Of a stretch of DNA of 64,000 nucleotides, positions 46,811-48,468 are shown piece after piece. Positions within the stretch are counted from its first letter, which is position 1, and each line of letters begins with the position of its first letter. The DNA is taken from NCBI GenBank assembly GCA_013791775.1, contig VMTE01000037.1, forward strand, positions 186,001 through 250,000, given 5' to 3'. The DNA comes from Hyphomonas sp. (GTDB taxonomy: Bacteria; Pseudomonadota; Alphaproteobacteria; Caulobacterales; Hyphomonadaceae). A program made the position numbers and the translations under genes. The notes beneath the pieces were generated by a model that saw only the letters and a list, made by a program, of their open reading frames with translations, did no database searches and was not told the DNA's origin.

Positions 46811-46846
46811 GTGCGTCTCTTTCACACCCATTCGGTTCTTTCAGAC

Positions 46847-46943
46847 CCCCTCTCCCCTCGGGGAGAGGGGCAGGGGTGAGGGGGCGAGGTTGTGCGCTGC
46901 CGCCGCCCCTCATCCCCAACCCTTCTCCCCAAGGGGGAGAAGG
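46847..46943. repeat. Two GC-rich hairpins between serS and surE
   Basis: CCCCTCTCCCC (46847-46857) pairs with GGGGAGAGGGG (46860-46870), and CCTTCTCCCC (46921-46930) with GGGGAGAAGG (46934-46943). The intervening GGGGTGAGGGG and CCCCTCATCCCC blocks are also mutually complementary, so the unit could fold as one large structure. It lies 7 bases after the end of serS and immediately before surE. Confidence 0.7.
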
Positions 46944-46950
46944 GGGCAAA

Positions 46951-48468
46951 TCACTTAACTACTTCAACCCCGCCCATATACGGCACAAGCGCCTTCGGCA
47001 CCGTGATCGAGCCGTCCGCGTTCTGATAATTCTCCAGCACCGCCACCAGCGTGCGGCCAACAGCAAGACCCGACCCGTTCAGCGTGTGCACGAATTCCGG
47101 CTTTGACTTTGCGTCGGCGCGGTAGCGGGCGTCCATGCGGCGGGCCTGGAAGTCGCCGCAATAGGAGCAGGACGAGATTTCGCGGTAGGTGTTCTGCGAG
47201 GGCAGCCAGACTTCGAGGTCATAGGTCTTGCGCGCCCCTGCCCCCATGTCGCCGGTGCAGAGCAGCATGCGGCGGAAGGGCAGATCGAGGCGCTTGAGCA
47301 CCTCCTCGGCGCAGCCGGTCATGCGCTCCAGTTCCTTCAGGCCATCCTCCCCGTTCGCGACGATGGAGACGAGCTCGACCTTGTAGAACTGGTGCTGCCG
47401 GATCATGCCCTTGGTATCACGCCCGGCGCTGCCCGCCTCGGACCGGAAGCACGGCGTGTGCGCCGTCATGCGCAACGGCAGCTGCCCCGCCTCGAGGATC
47501 TGCTCACGGACGAGATTGGTGAGAGGGACTTCGGCGGTGGGGACTAGATACCGTATGTCCGTGTATGCGCCCTCTGCAATTTTTTTATCTAAGACTGATT
47601 GGAGAATTGTTCCCCGTCCTTCAGCGAATTGATCTACGAACGCTTCTAGCGCAGACTTTCGTAGATCAGCATCAACTTCATCCAACCAACTTAAGTCGGA
47701 TTCTTCTAAAAACTGCTTCTTCCGCACGCTCAAAATTGCATTGAAGTGACGATTGGCGCGATCTCGGTCTATAGCTTCGGTCTTGAACAAATCTTCTTCA
47801 AACTTCGGCAACTGCCCAGTGCCCACCAGCGCCTGGTCGCGCACCAGCAGCGGCACGCTCGTCTCCTGATAGCCATGCTCCGTCGTCTGAATATCCAGCA
47901 TGAAGTTCGCGAGCGCGCGTTCCATCCGTGCCAGCTGTCCGCGCAGCGCGACGAAGCGCGCACCGCTCATCCGGGCGGCGGCTTCGAAGTCCATCATGGA
48001 GAACCCGCTCGGCACTTTCAGCGCCTCGCCAAGGTCGGCATGGTCCTTCGGATTGTTGATCAGTTTCGGCGTGCCCCAACGCGATTTCTCGATGTTGCCA
48101 TGCTCGTCCGTGCCTTCGGGCACTTCGTCCAGCGGCAGGTTCGGCAGGCCCATCAGCAGGTCGTCGAGCGCCGCGCGTTTCGTCTTCTCTTCCGCCTCGG
48201 CCGCCTCGATGGCGGTCTTGGCGTCGGCCACCAGCGCCATCAGGCGCGCGGCTTCCGCCTCGTCCTTCTTGGCCTTGGCCTGGCCGATCAGTTTGGAGGT
48301 GTCGTTGCGCGCCTTTTCGGCGTCCTGCTTGGCGGTGGTCGCCGCGCGCCAGGCGGTGTCGAGGGCGAGGATTTTCGAGACCGTCTCGTCCCCCAGCCCC
48401 GCCTTGCGGCGGTTCCAGGCGCGGATGAAAACGTCAGGGGTCTCGCGGATCGCGCGGATATCGAACAT
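46951..48468 (-). CDS. serS: Seryl-tRNA synthetase with a large in-frame insertion
   Basis: A 505-residue class II synthetase that charges tRNA-Ser and tRNA-Sec. The N-terminal coiled-coil arm is at about 30-105. The catalytic domain has [23 protein letters not shown] and the C-terminal [17 protein letters not shown]. Family members are about 425-430 residues. The excess is an insertion at about residues 231-306, between [12 protein letters not shown] and [12 protein letters not shown], where E. coli has a 13-residue loop. The insert is encoded by 47551-47778, where GC falls to about 44% and Leu is written TTA/CTA, unlike the rest of the gene. All catalytic motifs outside it are intact. Confidence 0.95.
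47551..47778 (-). other. In-frame AT-rich insertion within serS (about 76 codons)
   Basis: The segment codes residues 231-306 of SerRS without disrupting the frame. GC over 47581-47820 is 105 of 240 bases (about 44%), and 23 of 60 in 47581-47640, against about 65% around it. The peptide is charged, helical-looking and cysteine-free, with no similarity I can name. The compositional change spills about 20-40 bases into the conserved flanks on both sides (up to about 47800 and down to about 47540). An 11-bp perfect inverted repeat lies at its centre. Confidence 0.8.
47630..47668. repeat. 11-bp inverted repeat at centre of the serS insertion
   Basis: TGATCTACGAA (47630-47640) is the exact complement of TTCGTAGATCA (47658-47668) around a 17-base spacer. 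The midpoint (about 47649) is close to the middle of the insertion. It lies in coding sequence for about residues 267-280 of SerRS. Confidence 0.85.

Follow-up and report, generated by a model that had tools for sequence, protein, structure and literature searches.

Inserted segments in aminoacyl-tRNA synthetases are already known, and so are mosaic loci, and both kinds bear on the seryl-tRNA synthetase gene (serS; protein SerRS) studied here, which lies in a 64,000-nucleotide stretch of a Hyphomonas sp. genome (assembly GCA_013791775.1, contig VMTE01000037.1, positions 186,001 to 250,000; hereafter the window) and carries a variable in-frame cassette within its coding sequence. Mosaic loci under diversifying selection include surface antigens, phage receptors and mosaic drug-target genes. 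Like them, the serS site shows a local divergence peak in near-identical flanks, dissimilar alleles in close lineages and an allele family common to distant lineages, against the backbone tree; they are mostly exposed or drug-selected proteins, whereas SerRS is cytosolic, essential and universal, with a short cassette that its sequence position puts beside the active site. Closer in placement is insertion II of human cytosolic SerRS (G254-N261), which lies near the active site and has a negligible role in aminoacylation, according to PMC10817482. It resembles the cassette in occupying the corresponding site of the catalytic domain, where aminoacylation tolerates an addition near the active site, but it measures about 8 residues against about 72 net and is described in that source as specific to higher eukaryotes, whereas the cassettes reach 30-95 residues, are mostly dissimilar across species, come and go among close relatives and are recombined. 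The match of the window SerRS to human 4l87 begins at query residue 300 and chain residue 260, and human cytosolic chains match only from query 299-300 onward.

Small coding DNA is also inserted in-frame into genes by Rickettsia palindromic elements and other in-frame miniature inverted-repeat transposable elements (MITEs), as described in PMC10969869; these form repeated families in a genome, whereas the cassette occupies one site and has neither copies nor repeats. Conserved signature indels in housekeeping proteins are likewise in-frame changes, as here in an essential enzyme, and for Borrelia PMC3726837 lists a SerRS deletion of 1 residue, but such indels are conserved and mark clades for taxonomy, and the SerRS cassettes do neither. 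To our knowledge the combination found at this locus is undescribed: an essential cytosolic enzyme has, beside its active site, an interchangeable cassette that is mostly dissimilar from species to species and has been replaced between two species at 99% rpoB identity.

The window SerRS is one open reading frame (ORF) of 505 amino acids and, judged by its sequence, is a normal bacterial class II SerRS. Pfam matches flank the insert on both sides (Seryl_tRNA_N, PF02403, E 4.5e-21; tRNA-synt_2b, PF00587, E 2.6e-39), and T311, E313, R342, E344, R357, H359, Q360 and F361 are invariant in an alignment of 97 SerRS. We take TAE to be the serine-binding motif of SerRS, and FRSEAG and RQHQF to be further motifs of the family. 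Among solved structures the nearest are SerRS from bacteria, E. coli and Pseudomonas among them, with about 370-450 residues, and a model of the window protein reaches a TM score of 0.95 (by target length) against E. coli SerRS 6r1m. An earlier note, made from the letters of the window, had described an in-frame, low-GC insertion in this protein, and the description is borne out: 79 residues (229-307) separate LPKFEEDLF from LVPTAEV, the flanks are intact, and the stretch is the lowest in GC of the whole window. The interval holds 7 residues in insert-free relatives (for example KTTADHW), a net gain of about 72, so that the note's 76 residues at 47551-47778 were a fair estimate of what is measured here as 79 residues, about 72 net, at 47548-47784. 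The features of the gene are as follows.

46951..48468, minus strand: serS, seryl-tRNA synthetase, 505 codons plus stop, identified from the ORF list, Pfam PF02403 and PF00587, and nearest solved structures that are bacterial SerRS
48133..48468, minus strand: N-terminal tRNA-binding arm (PF02403, residues 1-112)
47785..47874, minus strand: conserved N-side flank of 30 codons, ending ...LPKFEEDLF; the equivalent stretch has excess synonymous divergence among close relatives
47548..47784, minus strand: variable cassette (residues 229-307), which replaces the 7-residue loop found in relatives without an insert; GC 0.447, the window minimum
47701..47766, minus strand: predicted cassette helix, residues 235-256 (AlphaFold2 model, block pLDDT 84-90)
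Residues 260-264: predicted short cassette helix between the 235-256 and 267-298 helices (AlphaFold2 model)
47575..47670, minus strand: predicted long helix of the cassette, residues 267-298 (AlphaFold2 model mc00be4f9ac7c, 10-residue block pLDDT 79-88)
47530..47538, minus strand: TAE, residues 311-313, directly downstream of the cassette; T311 and E313 invariant across the 97 aligned SerRS
47458..47547, minus strand: conserved C-side flank of 30 codons, pooled with the N-side flank for excess synonymous divergence
47026..47550, minus strand: portion of the class II catalytic core matched by PF00587, residues 307-481

The cassette stands out in composition. Its GC is 0.45, and 0.41 at third codon positions (GC3), against 0.65 and 0.85 in the remainder of serS. 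When the 64 kb are scanned in 237-bp windows at 10-bp steps, just one region (47501-47827) has GC of 0.48 or less, so that the low value is not chance composition, and 0.06% of these windows reach the GC of the cassette. The earlier note had also seen the compositional change spill into the flanking conserved codons, and this part fails: the 15+15 flanking codons have a mean GC of 0.556 in genus members with an insert (n=21) and 0.545 in those lacking one (n=21), and since insert-free members are equally low, the insert is not the cause of the lower flank GC.

Comparison across genomes shows that the window insert is one of many. A SerRS was recovered from all 42 genomes of a genus set with one genome per species (serS is cut by contig ends in G026 and G403, with the insert site readable in both); 21 of them carry a stretch of 30-95 residues, loop residues included, at exactly this site, and the other 21 carry 7 residues. 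All 21 genus inserts are lower in GC than the genes that hold them (means 0.48 and 0.63), and clear sequence families hold just 5 of the 21. The earlier note would have taken an insertion shared by all relatives, with normal codon usage, as a refutation; that is not the pattern seen. A survey of the class matched SerRS in 237 of 241 genomes and found a split match in 14, of which 13, the window genome included, carry inserts and one (G062) owes its split to a contig break and has the plain loop. Among the matches listed, inserts thus occur in at least 13 of 237, as shorter ones need not split a match. No split SerRS match occurs in the 85 matched of 89 genomes from other classes of the phylum. 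A scan of named genomes, in which the best 80 loci were ranked by similarity to an insert-bearing query and are therefore biased towards inserts, places inserts among those 80 in, for example, Microvirga, Bosea and one Xanthomonas isolate, and in metagenome-assembled genomes named Mesorhizobium, Devosia, Methylophilaceae, Methylotenera and Thiobacillus. Beyond the genus, inserts are sporadic in Alphaproteobacteria and in a few Beta- and Gammaproteobacteria. The longest stretch, 117 residues in G196 (L162:1156-1506), has a GC of 0.34 in a gene of GC 0.70 and is possibly a very recent arrival. The inserts are mostly dissimilar to one another (580 of 1653 pairs were scored after length-ratio and score filters, and close-species pairs of unequal length were compared separately), and on re-check the ties between the G019 and G404 inserts, and between the window insert and those of G033, G057 and G045, weakened.

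Turnover at the site is fast, and it leaves a footprint in the flanks. An rpoB tree built from 33 genomes of the genus, in two of which rpoB is partial, requires 10 or more switches between presence and absence of an insert. No pair is closer than G404 and G035, which are 99.1% identical in rpoB and have stretches of 95 and 37 residues that show no clear similarity, their local alignment score being reached by 12 of 500 shuffles; G036, their next relative on the tree, has the plain loop. Over the roughly 15 kb that G404 and G035 share, almost every 300-bp window is 95-100% identical; identity drops to 80% where the insert lies and to 93% in the window on each side of it, with one further dip, of 89-94%, near the far end. 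Within serS the successive 90-nt windows of this pair are 100, 100, 96, 91, 87, 97, 94 and 70% identical up to the insert and 89, 96, 96, 98, 100, 100 and 100% beyond it, and synonymous differences stand at 0.36 in the 60 codons that flank the junctions and at 0.07 over the remainder of serS; for rpoB the figure is 0.03. The same comparison in 20 close pairs (rpoB identity at least 0.93; the pairs share genomes and are not independent) gives higher synonymous divergence near the site than far from it in all 14 of the pairs with an insert in one or both members. Flanks adjoining inserts often lack a close match in the genus (73% at best for the last 75 nt in G035), which indicates that most donors are unsampled.

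The history of the inserts also departs from that of the proteins that carry them. On a backbone tree of 147 SerRS, built by a quick method with the inserts removed, the five members of insert family A3 require 5 changes and the three G012-type inserts require 3. Two of the A3 members (L072 and L075) are well-supported sisters of SerRS with other inserts (L156 and L082), and a third (L070) groups with insert-free SerRS. A divergence peak together with an insert family off the backbone tree is the pattern of cassette exchange, and acquisition by recombination, which the earlier note had proposed, is supported by the sharp peak of synonymous divergence at the insert and by one insert family on separate backbones. 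Together, these results support exchange of cassettes by homologous recombination in the conserved flanks.

Are the exchanged segments functional protein or mere filler? The proportion of nonsynonymous differences (pN, 0.15-0.50) is below that of synonymous differences (pS, 0.42-1.00) in all 12 related insert pairs, so the insert peptides are constrained. In 10 of the 12, pS is higher in the insert than in the core (0.95 against 0.52 in G017/G003; 0.84 against 0.48 in G012/G025), though in some the difference is slight, and most insert alleles seem either to predate the backbones on which they sit or to diverge faster than these do. Control genes behave otherwise. The rpoB span is 4059 nt in 31 of 31 full-length genus matches, the remaining 11 genomes having no match (7) or a partial one (4), taken to be gaps in draft assemblies, and threonyl-tRNA synthetase (ThrRS) spans 1677-1734 nt, varying by no more than 19 residues, in all 41 full-length matches, with one more genome partial. 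As far as these two genes show, a cassette is not a general feature of essential genes in the genus.

Structure prediction gives the cassette a defined shape. The AlphaFold2 model of the window SerRS (97 sequences, mean pLDDT 93.1) puts the insert at the tip of a hairpin, as helices 235-256, 260-264 and 267-298 between strands 229-233 and 303-308 (block pLDDT 79-92), and the G404 insert is modelled as four helices (block pLDDT 67-86), so that from two predicted models of different inserts the cassettes are probably helical. The best match among solved structures, viewed residue by residue, has no comparable insert. Proximity to the active site would follow from sequence position, a few residues before TAE. 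The tolerated surface loop pictured in the earlier note fits the hairpin-tip position in the model, but it is an incomplete account of inserts that are protein-constrained and present in 21 of 42 genomes, with controls that have no such length variation.

Several minor features of the inserts and their flanks are recorded here. The 58 distinct inserts of at least 28 residues contain 1 cysteine in 3358 residues, and 3 of the 58 have a net positive charge. Cysteine avoidance seemed a special trait when 41 inserts had none, and was dropped once the count stood at 1 in 3358 over 58 and the N-terminal arms of these proteins proved likewise Cys-poor (10 in 5780); surface helices may ordinarily show such a scarcity of Cys and such a charge bias. 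Six insert-free genus members (L010, L011, L012, L014, L211 and L212, from G010, G023, G021, G011, G402 and G405) have an altered flank, DMF-loop-LISTSEIS in place of DLF-loop-LIPTAEVP, a form present too in some Beta- and Gammaproteobacteria (L092, L095, L103) and perhaps an imported segment. Two inserts approach Pfam families without reaching the cut-off, that of L075 (L075:3661-3816) with similarity to the antitoxin VbhA at 22.2 of 25.9 bits and that of G404 (L213:1255-1539) with similarity to DUF6364, presumably an antitoxin-like family, at 20.8 of 27.3 bits.

The explanation that we favour, and regard on balance as probable, is that serS contains an interchangeable cassette site whose diversity is kept by selection. 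The window insert would be one allele at this site of an essential gene, each cassette being an in-frame and probably helical mini-domain in the hairpin just before TAE, with 30-95 residues in the genus and up to 117 elsewhere. Homologous recombination in the conserved flanking codons would bring about gain, loss and replacement of cassettes, drawn from a stock of divergent alleles, mostly AT-richer, that is shared across the boundaries of species and of higher taxa, and the cassettes would be constrained protein modules rather than filler, as seen in the handful of families that have two or more members. This much of the model (a helical cassette site, exchange by recombination, protein constraint) we consider very probable. 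What could maintain the diversity? Selection for novelty would do so if an intracellular antagonist, for which a phage protein, a toxin or a bacteriocin are candidates, bound or modified SerRS near its active site, and if a changed cassette shielded the enzyme or acted as a decoy; we put this last step forward tentatively, as something short of likely. In its fullest form, which we find more doubtful still, many Alphaproteobacteria would be engaged in an intracellular arms race fought at SerRS, with an antagonist docking beside the serine-binding site and cells swapping helical cassettes from a shared gene pool. A search of open-access literature, mostly at the level of abstracts, turned up no account of this bacterial SerRS site as hypervariable and no protein that antagonises SerRS in bacteria; MenT3, a toxin that modifies serine tRNAs (PMC11541572), came closest. 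Small-molecule SerRS inhibitors such as albomycin appear in the same literature, and point changes are judged a likelier response to these than swaps of whole segments.

The leading rival is a lineage-specific accessory module, in which the hairpin serves as a platform for small helical domains with roles in regulation, partner binding or moonlighting, and turnover tracks changing partners. Human cytosolic SerRS with its insertion II (G254-N261) at the corresponding site offers a precedent, and protein constraint and predicted folding of the inserts suit such a role well, but dissimilar replacement at 99.1% rpoB identity is faster than expected of a partner interface, and the confinement of clear families to 5 of 21 genus inserts also speaks against it; we think it unlikely, though less so than any other alternative. 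A nearly neutral loop would instead receive random AT-rich fragments at the hairpin tip by illegitimate recombination, after which they drift under AT-biased mutation and hitchhike with recombining serS segments. That 50 of the 58 distinct inserts are AT-richer than their gene, that they are mostly unrelated in sequence and that the model sets them at a hairpin tip are all as this account would have them, but it does not sit with a pN that stays below pS in all 12 related pairs, stop-free frames and good AlphaFold2 folding confidence, the lack of similar variation in rpoB and ThrRS, or the higher flank divergence of all 14 close insert-bearing pairs, and its chances are distinctly poor.

The earlier note had also entertained an in-frame mobile element, which would here be of the Rickettsia palindromic element or MITE type. 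The insert is indeed in-frame, compositionally foreign and inside an essential gene, and Rickettsia palindromic elements form such fusions (PMC10969869), but the searches run the other way. Apart from the insert itself, its own genome gives short matches alone, of 15-39 nt, elsewhere or at its own position on the opposite strand; in the 42 genus genomes the peptide has no relative outside serS with E below 0.4; and 47400-47950 has no direct repeats and no terminal inverted repeats, its one internal 11-nt inverted-repeat pair and one 11-nt palindromic pair both lying away from the ends. Since the window insert has no second copy and no convincing relative at other places in the genus, is bounded by neither terminal inverted repeats nor target duplications, and since inserts are dissimilar in most species, this idea is largely refuted and very improbable. 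The earlier note had looked to copies elsewhere as a sign of acquisition; their absence is read here as allelic exchange and not as the mark of an ordinary locus. An intein was considered as well and rejected. Inteins have a splicing domain of about 130 amino acids or more, start with Cys or Ser and end in His-Asn before Cys, Ser or Thr; the insert has 79 residues, begins with K, ends in RY before L and has no Pfam match up to E 0.5. A sequencing, assembly or frame artefact, or a pseudogene, would account for the odd composition and nothing else, and it is at odds with intact insert-bearing frames in many independent genomes, including the one-contig G019 and G404, with catalytic-motif residues that are kept and with one full serS locus in each relative genome surveyed; its probability is close to nil.

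A number of observations weigh against the cassette model and its selective step. Flank divergence is also raised in 4 of the 6 insert-free close pairs, so segments may to some extent be exchanged whether or not an insert is there, or else inserts may have been lost since. Two of the A3 members (L076 and L161) sit on long, unresolved branches of the quick backbone tree, and insert pS is not above core pS in 2 of the 12 pairs (L076/L161 and L070/L161). Synonymous sites are near saturation in most inserts, and constraint is judged from alignments of 32-75 codons; the controls are limited to rpoB and ThrRS, 8 of the 58 inserts are not AT-richer than their own gene, and one genome per species gives no view of polymorphism within species. 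No antagonist, partner or donor has come to light: the few inserts searched in phages, plasmids, viral contigs and outside serS gave no convincing relatives, the window insert having no tblastn match in phages and a single weak 40-residue match in plasmids (E 8), and the G000, G196 and A3 inserts having no relatives in viral contigs.

Conservation is the expectation for essential cytosolic enzymes, which serve as phylogenetic markers and drug targets. Cassette replacement at 99% rpoB identity, and sharing across distant lineages, implies strong selection on SerRS, and the variety of inserts suggests that one hairpin is able to host many dissimilar folded segments. In these groups serS is a poor phylogenetic marker. 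If the arms race is real, an essential enzyme would be a polymorphic immunity locus.

The essential gene serS is single-copy in the genomes looked at. In G001 a second match, 100% identical to SerRS residues 1-23, lies on another contig (G001:C21:7353-7421) in a 25-codon open frame and is possibly a contig edge or gene fragment. Beside serS in the window, the gap between surE and serS (46845-46950) is C/G-rich and partly palindromic, with two similar arms (ccctctcccctcggggagagggg ... cttctccccaagggggagaaggggg), and looks like a dispersed intergenic repeat.
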